DNA of 64,000 nt, from the NCBI GenBank assembly GCA_016931855.1, contig JAFGDZ010000076.1, forward strand, positions 1 to 64,000, read 5' to 3'. Origin of the DNA: Bacteroidales bacterium. GTDB taxonomy: Bacteria > Bacteroidota > Bacteroidia > Bacteroidales > Tenuifilaceae. Below, one piece after another: positions 1 through 11,413 of the stretch (its first letter is position 1; every line of letters begins with the position of its first letter). The notes under the pieces were generated by a model. It did not search any database, was not told the DNA's origin, and saw only the letters and a program-made list of their open reading frames with translations. The translations under genes were made by a program, and so were the position numbers.

Positions 1-1
1 T

Positions 2-169
2 GCCTACCCGAGGGGGCCTGTGGCGCCTCTAGCCCTAGCGGCGCTGCTTGAGCCCTTAGCCGGATTGTACCAACACGGTATGCTACGCAGGGATATGCGC
101 AGGGGTTGGGTTGTTATGATAAAGTTGCACTGGCGTATGTCCCCGCTAGGCAATGGTAGGTTTTCTTAG
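2..169 (+). CDS. Possible C-terminal end of a protein, cut by the window edge
   Basis: The second plus-strand frame is open from the window edge to a TAG at 167-169, giving about 55 residues. The first 60 bases are about 70 percent G+C, far richer than the rest of the window. The translated end is hydrophobic then basic (LLEPLAGLYQHGMLRRD, then RRGWVVMIKLHWRMSP). The other frames I checked here contain stops. I do not recognise the family; the hydrophobic stretch followed by a basic tail recalls the end of some family 2 glycosyltransferases, but that is only an impression. The high G+C could also be chance or foreign DNA. Confidence 0.4.
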   Translation, partial: AYPRGPVAPLALAALLEPLAGLYQHGMLRRDMRRGWVVMIKLHWRMSPLGNGRFS

Positions 170-436
170 GGTTGACTATTTGAACTATAATAGCTGTAGC
201 GCATTGATTAGCCTATTAGTACTGTATGGCTCTGATTGTTGGGGTAAACTTATAGTAGTCTGTTTTTTGTGGTATATAGCATAGTGGGTATATTTTAATA
301 GGCTCCTGTAATGACTATCTGTATGACTTAAGCGATGTGCGATAAGTTCTTATTGATTCAATTAAAAAAGCCGTACTGAACCTTATGTTCGGATACGGCT
401 TCTTATTTTATGTTTGACTAAAACAGCTTGGTTAAA
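170..436. other. AT-rich intergenic stretch with a terminator at its right end
   Basis: There is no convincing reading frame between the possible partial gene at the left edge and the minus-strand gene ending at 437. Base composition drops sharply to AT-rich after about 170. The only structure I see is the hairpin terminator at 368-401. Confidence 0.5.
368..401 (-). terminator. Rho-independent terminator of the 437-1144 gene
   Basis: AAGCCGTA at 368-375 pairs with TACGGCTT at 394-401, with further pairing inside (CTGAA against TTCGG, imperfect). Read on the minus strand, the stem is followed by a T run (complement of 362-369). It lies about 35 bases past the stop of the minus-strand gene. 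Confidence 0.8.
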
Positions 437-1144
437 CTAGTTCTTGCTTACAATATTTCCCGCTTCATCAAGTATTTCTATTCTGGGGCTGTTTTCGCTA
501 TCTACGTAAATTCTTATTCTAGGGCGTCCTGTGCTGTCGTTTATAAATAGCCCCACATCGCTATTCATCTTTTTACCAACAAACATTCTATCTTCGGGGA
601 GTAGCCCTTGTGCTTTCATTTTTAGTATGGCTTCCCGCTGTTCGTTCTTATCGCTTATTGCTTTAACTGCTTCAAATGCCTGTTCACGTTGATCATACGT
701 ATTCTCTTTTGGATATTCCCAGAATTGCAATCCGTATGTTCTTGTTTTTCTTTTGGTATCTTCAACATAACGAAGTTGCATTACTTGATCGTCTCTAAAC
801 TGATCTACCGAGAGTACTAGCCCTGCTTCGTTATCATTACCATCGTACACTAGTCCTCCGCACTCATCCCCAACGGCATTGAAGAAAATTAGCCCTGGCT
901 GCCTATCTCTTTGGGGTAATGCTTTTCCGTTTATTATCCCCGAATGTTGTCGCTGGCTATTGCTAATAACAAGTTTTAAATCGCCATTGCTCTCTACCAC
1001 GTTGATTCTTTCAACGGTTATTTCGTTGAATTGAGTATCTGGATCTTTTACGATTACCCATGCAATAGTTAGTATTAATGCTACTGTTAGCATTCCTGAA
1101 TAAACCATTAAAAAGGTAATCTGCTTTTGAGTTTTGTTAACCAT
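437..1144 (-). CDS. Membrane-anchored protein of unknown function
   Basis: This 235-residue protein has a basic N-terminus and one membrane helix at about residues 13-32, so most of it should lie on the periplasmic side, tethered to the inner membrane. There is no lipobox. The ectodomain is rich in short beta-hairpin-like units, with a last part that reads GLFINDSTGRPRIRIYVD and then PRIEILDEAGNIV, and a charged, possibly helical middle at about residues 145-180. I recall similar uncharacterised proteins in Bacteroidota but can assign no function. The gene stands alone, with its own promoter-like box at 1264-1271 and its own terminator at 368-401. The ATG at 1144 is the only good start. Confidence 0.75.
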   Translation of the reverse strand: MVNKTQKQITFLMVYSGMLTVALILTIAWVIVKDPDTQFNEITVERINVVESNGDLKLVISNSQRQHSGIINGKALPQRDRQPGLIFFNAVGDECGGLVYDGNDNEAGLVLSVDQFRDDQVMQLRYVEDTKRKTRTYGLQFWEYPKENTYDQREQAFEAVKAISDKNEQREAILKMKAQGLLPEDRMFVGKKMNSDVGLFINDSTGRPRIRIYVDSENSPRIEILDEAGNIVSKN

Positions 1145-3760: not shown

Positions 3761-5173
3761 ATGGGAAATTTTATCTTGCAAAGGATAAAATGGGTGTTTT
3801 TTTTGGGCTTTGTAATGTTGTTTTCCTGCGATTTCCGTGTGGAACCTATTTTTCGATCGGATGATGTGAATAGGGATCTGGAAGATATTATCGCTAAGGG
3901 TAAACTTGTGGCTGTTACCGACTTTAACACTACAAACTACTTTATTTACAAGGGAAAACCAATGGGTTACCAGTACGAAATGCTGCAATACCTTGCAGCG
4001 CAGCTAAACGTAAAGTTAGAACTGGTAGCCGAAAATAATCTTGAGAAAGCCTTTCAAATGTTGGAAAAGGGTGAGGTTGATTTAATCGCCAATAACCTTA
4101 CCATCACCTCTAAACGCAAGGAGAAGTACAGCTTTACTGTACCTCATGGACAAACCCGACAAGTTTTAGTGCAACGTAAGCTGTCAGAACCATCTGACAC
4201 CATGCTTATTGCTAATCCGCTTGACTTAGGCGGAAAGATTATTTACGTTCAGGAGGGCTCTGCTTCGGCACAGCGACTTCGTAATCTTTCCGACGAGATT
4301 GGGACACCCATTGTTATTGTTGAGATGCCTAACTATCAGGCCGATCAGCTTATTGAACTTGTTGCAAATGGCGATATTGATTACACCGTTTGCGATGAGG
4401 ATATTGCCCTTGTTAACGCTGCTATTCATGGGAATGTGGATGCTTCAACGGCTGTAAGCTTCCCTCAGAATGTGGCTTGGGCTGTTAGACCTGGCGCCAA
4501 CAAGCTGCTTGCTGAACTTGATACTTGGCTTAGCACGTTCACAAAAACAGCCGAGTACAGGCTAATTTACCGCAGGTATTATGATAATCCACGCATTGCA
4601 ACCATGTTCCAGAGTGGGTTCTTGTATGTTCGCAAAGGTAAAATATCTATTTACGATGAGGATATTAAGTCGCAGAGCTCCCAGATTGACTGGGATTGGC
4701 GACTTTTGGCATCGCTAATTTATCAGGAATCACGCTTTAATCACAATGTGGTATCGCATAAGGGGGCCTATGGTTTAATGCAGTTTATGCCAGCTACATC
4801 CGATTACTGGGGCATTGACCGTGATGCCGACCCCTACTCGCAGCTAAAGGCTGGTGTTAAGTACCTTAAGTGGCTTGATGAGAAGTTTATCATAAATAAC
4901 GTTGATTCATCTGAGCGGGTAAAGTTTATCCTTGCCGCATACAATGCGGGTATTGGCCATGTGTTTGATGCGCGTAACCTTGCTCGAAAGTATGGTAAGA
5001 ATCCCGATGTATGGGAAGGTAACGTTGATTACTTCCTGCTTAACAAATCAAAACCAGAATACTACAAGGATTCTGTTGTTAGGTTTGGGTACTGCCGTGG
5101 CGAGGAGACCTATAACTACGTAAAAGAGGTTATGGATAGGTACGACCACTACCGTAATATCATTCGTCCATAG
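3761..5173 (+). CDS. mltF: MltF-type membrane-bound lytic transglycosylase
   Basis: The 470-residue protein cleaves the MurNAc-GlcNAc bond of peptidoglycan, forming 1,6-anhydroMurNAc. It has a lipoprotein signal with lipobox LFSC (Cys23), a periplasmic binding-protein domain of SBP_bac_3 type at about residues 45-275 (regulatory in E. coli MltF), and a C-terminal SLT domain at about 310-450. The catalytic Glu is E323 in SLIYQESRFN, followed by the family signature GAYGLMQFMP and later AAYNAG. Length and domain order match MltF. The gene has its own promoter at 3702-3730. Its last 14 bases overlap the 3' end of the convergent nudix gene, with no terminator between them. Confidence 0.92.
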   Translation: MGNFILQRIKWVFFLGFVMLFSCDFRVEPIFRSDDVNRDLEDIIAKGKLVAVTDFNTTNYFIYKGKPMGYQYEMLQYLAAQLNVKLELVAENNLEKAFQMLEKGEVDLIANNLTITSKRKEKYSFTVPHGQTRQVLVQRKLSEPSDTMLIANPLDLGGKIIYVQEGSASAQRLRNLSDEIGTPIVIVEMPNYQADQLIELVANGDIDYTVCDEDIALVNAAIHGNVDASTAVSFPQNVAWAVRPGANKLLAELDTWLSTFTKTAEYRLIYRRYYDNPRIATMFQSGFLYVRKGKISIYDEDIKSQSSQIDWDWRLLASLIYQESRFNHNVVSHKGAYGLMQFMPATSDYWGIDRDADPYSQLKAGVKYLKWLDEKFIINNVDSSERVKFILAAYNAGIGHVFDARNLARKYGKNPDVWEGNVDYFLLNKSKPEYYKDSVVRFGYCRGEETYNYVKEVMDRYDHYRNIIRP

Positions 5174-5804
5174 TACAATCACTAAAGAGCTCTAGTAGCT
5201 CCGACATAATCATTGCTGTAGCTCCCCATATCTGTTCCTTATCTACTTTGTAGTAGGGTGCGGATATGGGGATGCTGTTTATGGCAATGGTTTTAACGGA
5301 ATGGTTTTCTACCTGCTTTAGGTCGCATAGTTTGGCGTGAATAGTGTACTCAACCTCTTGTAGGCTAAGGCTTAGCTTAGGCTTTTGGGCAAGTAATCCC
5401 ACAACGGGTTGAACCCATATATTGCTAACCGGGATAAAGAGCGGGGTAAGTTGTCCAATAACAGTAACTAAGCTAGGGTTTATACCCACCTCCTCCTCGG
5501 CTTCGCGAAGTGCCGTATCAACCAAATCCTTATCAAAAGGTTCTACTTTCCCGCCAGGGAAGGCTACTTGTCCGCTGTGCGCACCATTGTAAACGGGGCG
5601 CTTTATTAAGATTGTCTCTGCCCGATTATTGTTTGGGTATATTGATATTAGTACTGCGCTTTGCCTTGGCATCTCGTTTGGCTTAACAAAGGAGAGCAGC
5701 TCCGATCGGCTGGATGGAGCCATTTTTATTTGCGCCAATTCTCCTGGTAGGGGTTGCGTAAGTGCGTGCTGTATTTGCGTAACAATCTTGCTGAAACAAT
5801 CCAT
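5160..5804 (-). CDS. NUDIX hydrolase, probable CoA diphosphatase
   Basis: The 214-residue protein probably splits coenzyme A or its derivatives to 3',5'-ADP and 4'-phosphopantetheine. It carries the CoA-type NUDIX signature: HSGQVAFPGGK, then a NUDIX box ending TALREAEEEVGI, with the RE and EE metal ligands present. The size suits the YeaB/NudL group. It starts 5 bases after the gatD stop, so it is probably the last gene of a gatE-gatD-nudix operon. Its stop overlaps the convergent mltF gene. Exact substrate is inferred from the family motif only; a link to GatDE function is not evident. Confidence 0.85.
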   Translation of the reverse strand: MDCFSKIVTQIQHALTQPLPGELAQIKMAPSSRSELLSFVKPNEMPRQSAVLISIYPNNNRAETILIKRPVYNGAHSGQVAFPGGKVEPFDKDLVDTALREAEEEVGINPSLVTVIGQLTPLFIPVSNIWVQPVVGLLAQKPKLSLSLQEVEYTIHAKLCDLKQVENHSVKTIAINSIPISAPYYKVDKEQIWGATAMIMSELLELFSDCTMDE

Positions 5805-5809
5805 AAATG

Positions 5810-7195
5810 CTATTTCCTAACCTTTTTAATAAACTCTTCCACCTCGGGAACACCACCCTGATATACGAGGTAACCGTTGTAAGGTTCCTTTTTGGTTATC
5901 TCATCGTTGATTGGGGTAAGCATTAGGCGTTTCACCTCTTCGCGGTCGGTGGTTTGGCCTAGTGCCCAGCCCAGCTTAATGTAGGCGGTTTCGGGGAGCA
6001 TGTTCTCTGCAGGTATAATGCCTGCGGCCATAAGGTCGCGACCCGTATCGTAAACGTACATGTGGGCGTATCCCCAAAGGGTTTGTACGCTCATGTAAAT
6101 ATGTACGCCCTTCTCCGTTGCGCGCCTAATAGCGGGGTAAAGCGGCTTGTTTATGTGCCCAAGTCCCGTTCCGGCTATGATGATACCCTTATAGCCATTA
6201 TCAACCAAAGAATCGATAATATCGGGCTGCATGTTGGGGTAGTAGTAAACAATGGTAACCTTCTCCTCAAAGTAGGGCAGTATGTTTACCTTACGATCCT
6301 TACGCCTGTGGTTGTAATTCTCGATAATGGGCTTTACGCCATTAATGCGGCTAACCGTTGCAAGCGGTGTGTTGCCTATGGTGCGGAAGGTGGAGCGGTA
6401 CGATGAGTGCATCTTGCGCACCCTTGTGCCGCGGTGCAGGAATCCGTACTCATCGGATGTTGGGCCAAACATGCACACCATAACCTCGGCAATGTCGGAG
6501 TGGCCTGCTGTGTAGGCTGCGTGTATTAGGTTAAGGGCGGCGTCGCTACTTGGCCTGTCCGATGAGCGCTGCGAGCCCACCAGCACAATGGGTACAGGCG
6601 GGTTCTGAACCATAAAGGTTAGCGCTGCAGCGGTGTGGCTAAGGGTATCGGTGCCGTGACCAATTATAATACCATCAATCCCGTTCTCAATCTCCTTCCC
6701 AATGGCAATGGCAAGCGCCTTGTACTGCTCTGGCTCCATGTTCTCACTGAATACAGCAAAGAGCTTTTCTGTTGATAGGTTGCAGATATCGGCCAGCTCG
6801 GGAACGGCTCCGTAGAGTTCGCCGGGCGAGAAGGCGGGAATAACGGCACCTGTTCTGTAGTCGAGGCGCGAGGCAATGGTTCCCCCAGTACCCAGCAGCT
6901 TAACAAATGGCTGCCCCTCCTTGTAAGGGAACTCCTTTTCGGGTATTTTGTAGGTTGCTTTTGAGTAGCCAACCTCTTTCATGCTGTTGATGGTTACAAT
7001 ATCGATACCCACGTTGTACCCCGTATCAACCTTAATTACAATATGCTGGTCGTCGTCGTTCTCGGCGCGGGGTAGCACGGTGCCCCTAAACTCGCCACGC
7101 GTGGTGTCGATAATGGTTTTACCCCACACCCTAACGTTAAACTTTTTGAGAACCTCTAAGGCTTTGCCTTTATATCCTTGAAAAATATCTTCCAT
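5810..7195 (-). CDS. gatD: Glu-tRNA(Gln) amidotransferase subunit D, archaeal type
   Basis: With GatE, this 461-residue protein would convert Glu-tRNA(Gln) to Gln-tRNA(Gln); GatD is the asparaginase-like subunit that frees ammonia. An N-terminal beta-barrel-like domain (about residues 1-85, with KVDTGYNVGID) precedes a type I asparaginase domain. GTGGTIAS at 102-109, HGTDT at 180-184 and the Lys in RKMHSSYR at 261 correspond to the Thr, Thr-Asp and Lys catalytic residues described for archaeal GatD; the 76-residue spacing between T106 and T182 also fits. Plain asparaginases lack the N-terminal domain. It lies 17 bases after gatE in the same direction, the usual partner. GatDE is regarded as the archaeal enzyme, so its presence here is unusual. 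Confidence 0.93.
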   Translation of the reverse strand: MEDIFQGYKGKALEVLKKFNVRVWGKTIIDTTRGEFRGTVLPRAENDDDQHIVIKVDTGYNVGIDIVTINSMKEVGYSKATYKIPEKEFPYKEGQPFVKLLGTGGTIASRLDYRTGAVIPAFSPGELYGAVPELADICNLSTEKLFAVFSENMEPEQYKALAIAIGKEIENGIDGIIIGHGTDTLSHTAAALTFMVQNPPVPIVLVGSQRSSDRPSSDAALNLIHAAYTAGHSDIAEVMVCMFGPTSDEYGFLHRGTRVRKMHSSYRSTFRTIGNTPLATVSRINGVKPIIENYNHRRKDRKVNILPYFEEKVTIVYYYPNMQPDIIDSLVDNGYKGIIIAGTGLGHINKPLYPAIRRATEKGVHIYMSVQTLWGYAHMYVYDTGRDLMAAGIIPAENMLPETAYIKLGWALGQTTDREEVKRLMLTPINDEITKKEPYNGYLVYQGGVPEVEEFIKKVRK

Positions 7196-7212
7196 TTCTG
7201 TTGATTTTAGCG

Positions 7213-9216
7213 CTAATTATTCTCTACGTTTTTGTTGATGCTGTTTCGGAGCTCGCTTAGGCTGATATTACCAAGTGCCTGCTTATGTAGCTGACCCATA
7301 ACCCAGTTCTGAGTGGTAACAGGTGTGGGTTTGTTGCAAATGGTTATCTCCTTAAACTTCTCAACCAGATAGTTTACGGGTGCTAGCAGCTCATCCTTGC
7401 TACGGCGCTTGAAGCCAATGCTGGTGAGTACCGATTCAAAGTCCATGTTTGGATGACGGTAAACCACGGGTAGCATTAGCTTTGCCAGCGATTTGTCTAG
7501 CTTATTCGCAGCAAGGAACTTGAACATATCAACTATACGTGAGTGGCTAAAATCGGGATGGGCGGGTACTTGTCCTTCAACAAACTTAAGCCTATGCCCT
7601 AGGAATATTCCCGCAAATTGCCCTGTAAGCCCAAGGTTAACCAGCGATTCAATAACGGGAAGTAGGTTCTTTTTGAGTAGGTAGCTGTGCGTATCGGCAG
7701 GGATGTTCCACTCCTTCATCTGCTTGTAGCGCTCGGCAACATCGGTGGGGATATTCTTGCTAAGGCGCTGTATGTAGTCGTTGGCCAGTGGGATGGGAGC
7801 CGAGTCGGTATCGGGATACATGCGGTCGGCACCGGGCAGCACCCTCTCAAATAGCGTTGTGCCATTGGGGAGCGGGCGGCGTGTTTCGCGCGGAACGCCC
7901 TCAAAGGCCATTTGGCAGCGCTCGGTTATAGTATCCTTTGCGGTGGGGATATCCTCCTTTGGTCCCCAGAACACCACAATGGCATCGTTCTCATCGGCCT
8001 TTAAAAGGCTTTCTAGTATAGCAGTATCGTTGCCCAATAGTGGCGCATCAATATCCTCGGGGCTGGTAATGTTTGGTTTTTCGATACAGGCAATAACCTT
8101 TAGCCTATCGGTTAGCTCGCTAATAAAGCACTTGCCGGGCTGCGTAAAGTGCGATATTAACCCGCCAAAGTGGGGCAGAAGGGCTGCAACCACAACGTAA
8201 CCCTGCTCGTGCATGGCAAGTAGGGTTTCGTTCTCAATCCCAAGCTCCTTTGGGTCAATCTCCTTATAGGTGGTGCTCCAGCTGTTGGGGTTGGAAAGCC
8301 TGCTTAGTAGCACCTTCCTAATATTCAGCAATGCCCACTGACGGAAAGCCTCAATGTGCGATAGCTCCGGAATCCATCGGTTATGCGATACGCCCTTAAT
8401 CTCGATACGGGTACCGCCCTTGCAGCTAACGTTCACATCCTCGCGGGCAGCACCCATTCCGGTGCGCACCTTTCCCGTGCTGCGGTTAAGAAAGCGGATA
8501 TATTCGGCAGCCTCGCGAAGCTCATCGGGGGTAAGGCACTCGGGGTGCGTTACTGTTTCAATTAGGGGCATCCCTAGGCGGTCGGTTTTGTAGATACGCT
8601 TGTGGCCAATGTCCGATATCTCTCGGCACGAATCCTCCTCAATGCTTAGCTGAATAAGGCCTATGCGCTTGTTGCTAATCTGTATTTCGCCCTCTACTCC
8701 CAGAATGGCTGTACGCTGAAATCCAGTTGGGATGCTACCATCTAGGTACTGCTTACGGGTAATATGCACCTCGCCCACAATGTTGAGCTTGCTTAGCAGC
8801 GATATTTCAAGAGCATACTCAAGTGCCTCACGGTTGATGGGGAACGGAGGGGTATCGTCAATCTCGTAGGTGCAGGTGGTGGCGTTGTTAAGGCGGTAGG
8901 TAATCTCCTTTTTGGTTTTGAACTCCATAAGGGCGGTGCCATCGTACTCGCCCAGCTCGCTAAGGGTAGGGCGCATGTGGCGGATAACCTCGGCGTGGTA
9001 GTTATTGTTGCTGTGAAAAACGCCTGCAGGGCAGCGGCAAAAGAGCTTCTCTTTGGTTTTTAGCTGCTGGTGAACCTCCAGCCCCGACATAAATCCGATA
9101 CGCTGGTAATCGCTCTCCTTGGCATCCTTTCGGTCAACGTAGCCAATTGCTTTGCGGGTGGCTAGGTAGTTCTTTCGGGGGTCCACTCTTTTGGTAGAGG
9201 AAGGGCTTTTTTTCAT
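7213..9216 (-). CDS. gatE: Glu-tRNA(Gln) amidotransferase subunit E, archaeal type
   Basis: This 667-residue protein is the tRNA-binding and glutamyl-tRNA-activating subunit of GatDE, related to GatB. The GatB/E catalytic core is visible at about residues 40-290 (GLEVHQQLKTKEKLFCRCP, HMRPTLSELGEYDGTA, EDSCREI, GRIGLIQLSIEED-like region, RTGMGAAREDVNVSC). The insertion at about 300-430 fits the AspRS-type GAD domain that distinguishes GatE from GatB, and the tail at 540-660 fits the helical YqeY-like tRNA-binding domain. GatB is about 480 residues, so length alone argues for GatE. It is the first gene of the operon with gatD and nudix and has a -7-like box at 9283-9290. The ATG at 9216 is a clean start. 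Confidence 0.93.
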   Translation of the reverse strand: MKKSPSSTKRVDPRKNYLATRKAIGYVDRKDAKESDYQRIGFMSGLEVHQQLKTKEKLFCRCPAGVFHSNNNYHAEVIRHMRPTLSELGEYDGTALMEFKTKKEITYRLNNATTCTYEIDDTPPFPINREALEYALEISLLSKLNIVGEVHITRKQYLDGSIPTGFQRTAILGVEGEIQISNKRIGLIQLSIEEDSCREISDIGHKRIYKTDRLGMPLIETVTHPECLTPDELREAAEYIRFLNRSTGKVRTGMGAAREDVNVSCKGGTRIEIKGVSHNRWIPELSHIEAFRQWALLNIRKVLLSRLSNPNSWSTTYKEIDPKELGIENETLLAMHEQGYVVVAALLPHFGGLISHFTQPGKCFISELTDRLKVIACIEKPNITSPEDIDAPLLGNDTAILESLLKADENDAIVVFWGPKEDIPTAKDTITERCQMAFEGVPRETRRPLPNGTTLFERVLPGADRMYPDTDSAPIPLANDYIQRLSKNIPTDVAERYKQMKEWNIPADTHSYLLKKNLLPVIESLVNLGLTGQFAGIFLGHRLKFVEGQVPAHPDFSHSRIVDMFKFLAANKLDKSLAKLMLPVVYRHPNMDFESVLTSIGFKRRSKDELLAPVNYLVEKFKEITICNKPTPVTTQNWVMGQLHKQALGNISLSELRNSINKNVENN

Positions 9217-9507
9217 TCTATTGAGGAAATTAGTTATAGAAAAGTTTGGGTTCCCCTAAATTAGTTTTGTTGCGATGAAATACAAAGGTAGTGCGCTAAT
9301 ATTTTGAATATTAGTGATTGGGGGTGAGGCTAAGAGACGCCAATGGAACACAGATAACGCGGATTTTGATAGATATCCACAGCAAAAGGATTAACTTGTA
9401 GAGGCGATGTGAGGTAAGTGAAAGGTGCACAAAAACACCCCACTAGCAAGAAGGGTACACAAAGCTTGGTAAAACATGGAAATTCTGGCTCTATTGGGCC
9501 AAACCCA
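9217..9507. other. Intergenic region upstream of gatE
   Basis: These 291 bases hold a minus-strand -7-like box (TACCTTTG, 9283-9290). The piece at about 9335-9385 (AGAGACGCC..., then ACACAGATAACGCGGATTTT) resembles the degenerate non-coding repeats common in Bacteroidota intergenic DNA, but I find no second copy in the window. No gene is seen. Confidence 0.4.
9283..9290 (-). promoter_or_regulatory. -7 box of the gatE-gatD-nudix operon
   Basis: CAAAGGTA on the plus strand reads TACCTTTG on the minus strand, about 67 bases before the gatE ATG. No clear -33 partner is seen. Confidence 0.45.
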
Positions 9508-10752
9508 CTAATCGAACTTAATGGTTTTTTCGGGACTGATTCTGGAAATTATCATGGAAGGAACCACAAGCATTGCAAGAGTTACAGCAAAGGTTCCAAG
9601 GTTTAGCAGCGCAATATGCAAAAGGTTAATGTTTATGGGCACTGTGTCTAAGTAGTAATTTTCGGGATCGAGGCCAATTACTCCGTACCGATGCTGAATG
9701 TAGCACAGCGCTACGCCCACCACATTACCCCAAAACAACCCTTTGCCAATGATGTAGGCCGATTGGTACATAAATATCTTCCTAATAATTCCATTCCCAG
9801 CGCCAAGAGCTTTTAGTACGCCAATCATGTTGGTGCGCTCAAGAATCATAATAAGTAGCGCCGATATCATGTTAATGCCTGCAACAATTAGCATTAGCAG
9901 TATAAGGATTATCAGGTTTAGATTTTGAAGACCAAGCCAGTCGAAGGTCTGCGGGTACTTGTCTATAATATTGTAAACGCGCAGCTTAGAGCCATCCTCA
10001 AAAAAGCGAAGGCCTGCAATATCATCAATGGCAAGGGTTAAATCTTCAAGGTTGTCAAAATCATCAATAAAAATCTCAAAACCAGTTATTTGGTCGTCGT
10101 CCCAGCCATTAATGCTGCGGATGTGCCGTAAATCGCCAATAACAAAAAGGTTATCGAGTTCGCCCATTTGGGTGTTGTATATACCATTAACCGTGAACCT
10201 ACGAACCCGTGGGGGCTGCTGCACAAAGTACATATCAACCTTATCGCCAACCTTTAGCTTAAGTAGCGATGCAACGTTTTGTGATATAATTATTTGGTTT
10301 GATACCGTGGAGTCGTTAAGCTCAATAATTGAACCCTCTACTAGGCTTTTCTTTATGAAGCTCCAGTCAAAATCGCTGGCAATACCCTTAAGCACAACGC
10401 CATGAATATCGGTACCTGTTTTTAGCATGCCTGGTTTTACAGCAAACTGCTGTATGTGCTCAATGCCATCAATGGCTTGTATTTGGGGCAGAAAGTCCTG
10501 GTTGTTACTTATGGGATTGGTTTCGAAGGAGGTGTTGCCATCAAAGTTCACAATTTGGATATGACTGGCAAAGCCAATGGTTTTCTGACTAATCTCGCGC
10601 TTAAACCCGGTGAGCACCGATATGCCAATAATCATAATGGCCAGGCTTAGCCCAATGGCTACTGCCGATATTCGTGCGAAGGGCTTGGATAGGTTTTTTG
10701 ACCCATTCTGCTTGCCCGATAATCGCTTTGCTATAAAGTGCTCAACGTTCAC
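9508..10752 (-). CDS. ABC transporter permease of LolC/LolE (FtsX) type
   Basis: This inner-membrane permease of about 414 residues likely extracts lipoproteins with an ABC ATPase encoded elsewhere. It has the LolC/E layout: a first membrane helix (ISAVAIGLSLAIMIIGISVL), a large periplasmic domain with GFASHIQI near its start, then three C-terminal helices (NLNLIILILLMLIVAGINMISAL, and the last ending near the C-terminus) with the FtsX motif containing MIGVLKALGA. I chose the GTG at 10752 because homologues begin close to VEHFIAKRL; a TTG at 10794 is also possible and would overlap the upstream gene by 14 bases. No ATG start exists. Other permeases of this fold serve different substrates, so the Lol role is inferred. 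Confidence 0.85.
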   Translation of the reverse strand: MNVEHFIAKRLSGKQNGSKNLSKPFARISAVAIGLSLAIMIIGISVLTGFKREISQKTIGFASHIQIVNFDGNTSFETNPISNNQDFLPQIQAIDGIEHIQQFAVKPGMLKTGTDIHGVVLKGIASDFDWSFIKKSLVEGSIIELNDSTVSNQIIISQNVASLLKLKVGDKVDMYFVQQPPRVRRFTVNGIYNTQMGELDNLFVIGDLRHIRSINGWDDDQITGFEIFIDDFDNLEDLTLAIDDIAGLRFFEDGSKLRVYNIIDKYPQTFDWLGLQNLNLIILILLMLIVAGINMISALLIMILERTNMIGVLKALGAGNGIIRKIFMYQSAYIIGKGLFWGNVVGVALCYIQHRYGVIGLDPENYYLDTVPININLLHIALLNLGTFAVTLAMLVVPSMIISRISPEKTIKFD

Positions 10753-10780
10753 TGATTTTCTGTTTATTGTTGGGTTTGCG

Positions 10781-11413
10781 TTACTTTCGGCCAAAATCGG
10801 CGGGAATTTCGCCCCAAGCCTCGGTGTGCCACTTAAGAATTTGGTTTGGCCACTGGTTGTTCTTAAGCCACAGTTCGGCTCTATCTACCAGTTCAAATAG
10901 CTGCTTGTTGGCCTCGGTGCGCTCCTGTTCGGTGTTGGCTCGCTTAATGCGTACCCATTTCATGGCGGTAACGCTATCGGTGTACAGGGGCAGGTTGCTA
11001 TTGTGTTTTTGTAAAAAGGCTAACCCATGCACAATGGCTAGGAACTCTCCAATGTTATTGGTTCCCTCATCAAAGGGGCCTTGGTGAAATAGGAGCTTAC
11101 CCGTTTTGGCATCAACCCCTTGATATTCCATACGGCCAGTGCGGGAGTTGCAGGCCGCATCAACAGCAATACTAGGGAATACGGGCTTTCCAATTAGCGA
11201 AAGCTGCTCCTTGCTCAGCTCCTTTTTGGGTGTGGGTTTGCCTATGTACTTGTGGTAATCGCTGTTAAAAGCCTCAAGAGCCATTTCATAAGAGGGAAAT
11301 GCTTTGTAAATGGCGCCATTAACGCCATCAACCTGTTTTAGGCAGTCGGCCCATTTGGTGTAAACCCCAGGCTTTTTGCCAACCCAAACTGTATAAAAAT
11401 TCTTTTTTGCCAT
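10781..11413 (-). CDS. Ribonuclease H with N-terminal viroplasmin domain
   Basis: The 210-residue enzyme cleaves the RNA strand of RNA-DNA hybrids. The N-terminus (about residues 4-48, FYTVWVGKKPGVYTKW) is the caulimovirus-viroplasmin hybrid-binding domain found in eukaryotic RNase H1 and some bacteria. The catalytic domain starts at about residue 80; the four acidic residues appear as D85 (AVDAACN), E123 (NIGEFLAI), D146 (YTDSVTA) and D206 (GEIPADFGRK). The ending WGEIPADFGRK is typical of the Bacillus halodurans RNase H group. It is followed closely by the LolC/E-like permease, so the two may be cotranscribed. Confidence 0.92.
   Translation of the reverse strand: MAKKNFYTVWVGKKPGVYTKWADCLKQVDGVNGAIYKAFPSYEMALEAFNSDYHKYIGKPTPKKELSKEQLSLIGKPVFPSIAVDAACNSRTGRMEYQGVDAKTGKLLFHQGPFDEGTNNIGEFLAIVHGLAFLQKHNSNLPLYTDSVTAMKWVRIKRANTEQERTEANKQLFELVDRAELWLKNNQWPNQILKWHTEAWGEIPADFGRK

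Follow-up and report, generated by a model that had tools for sequence, protein, structure and literature searches.

The window, a 64,000-nucleotide stretch of a Bacteroidales genome, carries adjacent gatE and gatD genes whose membership of the GatDE amidotransferase family is well supported. The best explanation of this locus, to which we assign a probability of about one half, is that it codes for a true GatDE, kept by selection and belonging to an old bacterial branch, that most likely acts on Glu-tRNA(Gln) in parallel with GlnRS. Bacterial GatDE is a widespread and ancient family, although reviews have called GatDE archaea-only; a 2022 review (PMC9499178) restricts it to archaea, as does PMC8007984. 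A search of open-access papers gave nothing relevant on bacterial GatDE, and the automatic models of NCBI would already label such bacterial proteins GatD or GatE.

The gatE–gatD locus and its products

The features of the locus are listed in Table 1. The place of the pair, the order of the two genes, and the gap between them are exactly as an earlier note on this DNA had given them, and the identification of the pair as GatDE made in that note holds on sequence, catalytic residues, trees, and fold.

Table 1. Features of the gatE–gatD locus (window positions) and segments of GatE (residue numbers).
Feature	Position	Strand	Size or spacing	Description
gatE	7213..9216	-	667 aa	GatB/GatE core, GAD-fold insertion, YqeY-like tail, N-terminal extension
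gatD	5810..7195	-	461 aa	GatD_N and type I asparaginase domain
gatE-gatD gap	7196..7212	-	17 bases	
NUDIX hydrolase-like ORF	5160..5804	-	5 bases 3' of gatD	name from sequence reading
LolC/FtsX-type permease-like ORF	9508..10794	-	upstream of gatE, same strand	name from sequence reading
Clade-specific N-terminal extension	GatE residues about 1-34			
GatB/GatE kinase-amidotransferase core	GatE residues about 36-300 and 426-482			
GAD-fold insertion	GatE residues 310-441			from structure model
YqeY-like helical tail	GatE residues about 483-667			

The window GatE scores 377 bits against TIGR00134, above the cut-off of 319.6, and narrowly misses PRK04028 (453 bits, cut-off 456). Its core is homologous to the GatB subunit of bacterial GatCAB, but the GatB models score far under their cut-offs on it. 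For GatD, the scores are 499 bits against TIGR02153 (cut-off 324) and 501 bits against PRK04183 (cut-off 310). In the PDB, the two proteins are closest in sequence to archaeal GatE and GatD, respectively, from entries 2d6f and 1zq1. The earlier note had read GatD as an N-terminal domain followed by an asparaginase domain with T106, T182, D183, and K261. Both parts of that description are borne out, as GatD_N (PF18195) is found with 43.5 bits (cut-off 25.7), and the four residues are invariant in 30 of 30 bacterial GatDs. The catalytic domain of GatD is like that of the type I asparaginases, from which GatD differs in having GatD_N, a gatE partner, and a place in the tree with archaeal GatD.

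The AlphaFold2 model of GatE (pLDDT 85, pTM 0.81) has as its best fold match 2d6f_D, with a Z-score of 30.0 over 494 residues at 4.7 Å, followed by 1zq1_C with a Z-score of 27.2. The earlier architecture of a core, a GAD-sized insertion, and a helical tail stands for the core and the tail; the insertion is recovered by fold, without a match to the Pfam GAD model in the window GatE. That absent match suggested that the GAD domain had been lost, which the earlier note regarded as evidence against a GatDE. Loss is ruled out by the modelled fold, in which residues 310–441 match the GAD domain of AspRS (Z 9.9, 116 residues, 3.0 Å), and archaeal GatE chains also span this region. The Pfam model matches 18 of 21 GatEs in alignment A1, which combines bacterial with archaeal proteins, and 16 of 47 in a second set that contains many of the Bacteroidales type. 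By its modelled fold, the window GatE thus keeps the GAD domain, with a diverged sequence. The tail matches PF02637 weakly (17.2 bits, under the gathering threshold of 27); the model has the tail helices, and residues 603–664 match YqeY with a Z-score of 7.0.

The archaeal GatDE of Methanothermobacter (2d6f) and Pyrococcus abyssi (1zq1) is the best match of the pair in sequence and fold; the archaeal and the window enzymes have in common the two-subunit make-up, the catalytic residues, GatD_N, the GatE core, a GAD-fold insertion, and a helical tail. Over archaeal, Ignavibacteria-type, and Bacteroidales-type sequences, 155 GatE columns are conserved. The GAD and tail domains of the Bacteroidales type are, unlike the archaeal ones, strongly diverged; between the window GatE and the Ignavibacteria-type, identity is 66% in the catalytic core, 25% in GAD, and 16% in the tail.

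Among the 70 loci with both genes as open frames (window counted), gatD directly follows gatE on the same strand in 69. A search for a neighbour clue across 81 loci found none, besides gatD, common to more than 12, and the gatE–gatD operon thus moves among genomic contexts. The NUDIX-like ORF is possibly co-transcribed with gatD; since its family is common to just 11 of the 81 loci, it lies outside any conserved system. Likewise, the LolC/FtsX-like neighbour is common to 12 of the 81 and is no part of the GatDE system. Some 60–70 bases 5' of gatE (within window positions 9217–9300, minus strand) lies TACCTTTG, which fits TAnnTTTG, the -7 motif of promoters in Bacteroidetes. At three other loci (L071, L098, and L110), gatE is full-length and is followed by over 4 kb of sequence, yet tblastn finds no gatD; some Bacteroidales may have GatE without GatD, or a GatD located apart.

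Distribution, selection, and ancestry

GatDE in Bacteroidota is not a lone transfer. Full GatE occurs in 30 of 395 genomes of a phylum sample and in 138 of 344 genomes of a Bacteroidales order sample, including five of five in the window's family; it is missing from 60% of the order sample. Cultured hosts exist, the named relatives being Perlabentimonas gracilis (70% identity), Marinifilum flexuosum, and Labilibaculum, along with many Bacteroidales MAGs. GatE is also found in MAGs labelled Saprospiraceae, Aminicenantes, Zixibacteria, Cloacimonadota, Chlorobiota, and Archangium, labels that may reflect mis-binned contigs. A second bacterial GatE group, for which we use the inferred label “Ignavibacteria-type”, belongs to several families of the same phylum outside the window's class. 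No virus-borne gatE was confirmed in viral contigs. A plasmid search with archaeal GatE gave one full-length-like match only, on the Natrinema thermotolerans plasmid CP031304.1 (L191). This gatE-like stretch is unannotated and its frame is broken, with the coding sequence not confined to a single frame; it may be a pseudogene.

The gatE–gatD operon is under strong purifying selection, as close pairs with unsaturated dS give a dN/dS of about 0.03–0.07 in GatE and under 0.04 in GatD. The earlier statement that the genes have the same base composition as their neighbours does not hold, as GC3 is 60% in both gatE and gatD versus 46 ± 6 in 26 other window genes. The excess is smaller in the closest relative, Perlabentimonas gracilis (55 versus 49), and over 76 relatives the mean excess for gatE is only 2.2 points.

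The trees, which hold two or three archaeal sequences, place the pair neither with bacterial GatB nor with plain asparaginases, the two placements that the earlier note took as contrary to GatDE. Bacterial GatE stands apart from the three archaeal GatEs and also from GatB, the latter with a starred support of 100. Its two clades are an Ignavibacteria-type one of 27 rows and a Bacteroidales-type one of 34 rows. When the fragmentary Natrinema sequence, a poor archaeal representative, is left out, a single branch with a support of 91 (not starred) sets off all the bacterial GatEs. The GatD tree agrees with this: the 30 bacterial GatDs form one group (98/92, starred) that excludes the archaeal GatDs and the asparaginases, of which there are two each, and GatD groups with archaeal GatD (98/96, starred) rather than with E. 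coli AnsA/AnsB, the asparaginase branches being very long. Bacterial GatE and GatD thus each form a clade of their own, distinct from the small number of archaeal sequences in the trees, and in this they differ from the archaeal enzyme.

The earlier note had offered an ancient transfer from archaea or a bacterial GatDE branch. The bacterial branch is the better of the two, given the separate clades and how common GatDE is, both within Bacteroidales and within another class-level group of the phylum. Its origin, as seen with two or three archaeal sequences, is either a very old bacterial gene or an old archaeal gift. A Bacteroidales-type gatED (L034), with 62% identity to the window pair in GatE and 82% in GatD, also occurs outside the class, in genome G156 of family f36, although other f36 genomes carry the Ignavibacteria-type; G156 likely acquired its genes by transfer within the phylum.

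The stem leading to the Bacteroidales-type GatE clade is long, at 1.57 changes per column. Together with the low identity of the GAD and tail domains to the Ignavibacteria-type, this could point to a non-translational substrate for the Bacteroidales-type enzyme, be it another tRNA or a small molecule. We consider such a shift very unlikely, as the catalytic core, the GAD fold, and the tail are all kept, and no conserved neighbours point to a pathway.

Coexistence with GlnRS

A survey of the window's genome (98% complete) for GlnRS, GatCAB, and GluRS, as proposed in the earlier note, contradicts the suggestion made there that the organism may lack GlnRS. A GlnRS is present (749 bits, cut-off 425.8), as are one bacterial GluRS, a bacterial AspRS, LysRS, and AsnRS. 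A search for GatB with PF02934 returned GatE as the only match, and the single amidase scores 240 bits on the GatA model, for which the cut-off is 481. Judged by the GatB and GatA models, the genome thus appears to lack GatCAB. GlnRS is found in 27 of the 30 GatE-positive genomes tested; of the other three, G287 and G314 have no GlnRS but do have GatB loci, and one has a GlnRS fragment match only. GlnRS is the enzyme said to make GatDE unnecessary, yet both live in one cell across a large and old bacterial branch, which weakens this argument. As GlnRS is present, the window's genome can do without the GatDE route to Gln-tRNA.

Both tRNA-Gln genes of this genome (UUG and CUG) have U1-A72 and A73. 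Since archaeal GatDE recognises A1-U72 of tRNA-Gln (PMC9499178), recognition by the bacterial GatDE must have changed; an enzyme that coexists with GlnRS must cope with a bacterial-type tRNA(Gln). Neither the archaeal setting without GlnRS nor the A1-U72 pair is thus found in the window's genome, differences that concern, respectively, the setting and the substrate and not the protein family. The tRNA-Gln genes (L184 and L188), with A73 and no G3-C70 pair, also differ from the bacterial Gln identity set described in PMC9976931.

The GluRS has an Arg at the equivalent of T. thermophilus Arg358. This residue was rejected as a mark of discrimination because the GlnRS-less genomes G287 and G314 carry Arg too, so the signature is not diagnostic. 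It was the sole signature tried and is uninformative here; by it, no non-discriminating GluRS was identified.

The data show the family of the pair, its conserved catalytic residues, its fold, its operon, its distribution, and its coexistence with GlnRS; that the enzyme is active, which substrate it uses, and where the misacylated tRNA comes from are inferred. The conservative reading, carried over from the archaeal enzyme, is a route to Gln-tRNA(Gln) that runs in parallel. The Thr/Thr/Asp/Lys site of GatD would free ammonia from an amide donor. GatE would bind the misacylated tRNA with its core, GAD domain, and tail, activate the side-chain carboxylate with ATP, and then amidate it. Amidation of Glu-tRNA(Gln) would provide a second path to Gln-tRNA(Gln) alongside GlnRS. 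In favor of this explanation are the equivalog matches, the best PDB matches, the invariant residues, the conservation of GatE over the three sequence types, the low dN/dS, the adjacency of the genes, and the separate clades. Against it stand the presence of GlnRS, the U1-A72 pair of the tRNA-Gln genes, and a GluRS not identified as non-discriminating.

GatDE might also serve in quality control, either correcting the errors of GluRS that yield Glu-tRNA(Gln) or acting when GlnRS or glutamine is limiting. Such a role would fit with the coexistence of GatDE with GlnRS and a bacterial GluRS and with the strong purifying selection, which, along with the absence of GatE from 60% of the order, indicate that GatDE is useful but dispensable. 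However, many relatives do without GatDE, and a role in quality control is in our estimation improbable.

Asparagine synthetases and a possible second substrate

A further point against Glu-tRNA(Gln) as the substrate is one that this explanation does not predict: over the order, GatE is strongly anti-correlated with AsnA and AsnB. Among the 344 genomes of the order sample, AsnA is present in 24 of 143 GatE-positive versus 112 of 201 GatE-negative genomes (Fisher p 1e-13). Best hits in the AsnB range follow the same direction, with 6 of 143 versus 72 of 201 (p 2e-13); the 143 include five fragmentary copies under the cut-off. By family, AsnA or AsnB-range hits occur in 6 of 46 all-GatE-positive versus 41 of 58 all-GatE-negative families (p 3e-9). 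The families share ancestry, lineage effects may contribute, and the anti-correlation is a lead. The AsnB counts leave out best hits to TIGR01536 whose E lies under about 1e-122. Such hits were rejected because all six that were tested fall short of the equivalog cut-off for AsnB; they are mostly relatives of exopolysaccharide-type amidotransferases, behind which a true AsnB may be hidden in as many as 54 GatE-positive genomes.

In the window's genome, family models run with controls give no match for AsnA and only weak paralogues for TIGR01536 (best E 8.6e-12); by these models, the genome appears to lack both AsnA and AsnB. They supersede a fused AsnA+AsnB query, which was run without a control and gave no match.

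It is tempting to propose that bacterial GatDE has shifted to, or has added, the amidation of Asp-tRNA(Asn), with a relaxed AspRS, and that Asn made on the tRNA replaces the asparagine synthetases. The apparent absence of the synthetases from the window's genome and their rarity in GatE-positive genomes and families point this way, and there is a precedent in the GatCAB of Bdellovibrio bacteriovorus (PMC4206432). That bacterium likewise keeps an amidotransferase, GatCAB, beside GlnRS and AsnRS while AsnA and AsnB are absent; it differs in that the amidotransferase of the window's genome is GatDE. We regard amidation of Asp-tRNA(Asn) as a serious rival to that of Glu-tRNA(Gln), though the less likely of the two. 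The shared ancestry of the families weighs against it, and the 16 mixed families give no signal linking GatE and the synthetases. In the window's own family, AsnA stands alongside GatE in three of five genomes. Another 31 genomes of the order sample, each at least 90% complete, have no match to GatE, AsnA, or AsnB; they are probable asparagine auxotrophs, so auxotrophy is common. Finally, archaeal GatDE is Gln-specific (PMC9499178).

Stated more broadly, Bacteroidales GatDE may have been repurposed to make asparagine on tRNA(Asn), or some other amide-tRNA, despite the presence of GlnRS, its recognition having been altered (U1-A72). We hold this as a tentative suggestion; if it is true, a family held to be archaeal and Gln-only would have a second, bacterial function. 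The single AspRS of the window's genome, of the bacterial type, would speak against relaxed specificity; it has Leu31, like E. coli AspRS and T. thermophilus AspRS1, at a position that is presumably a marker of discrimination.
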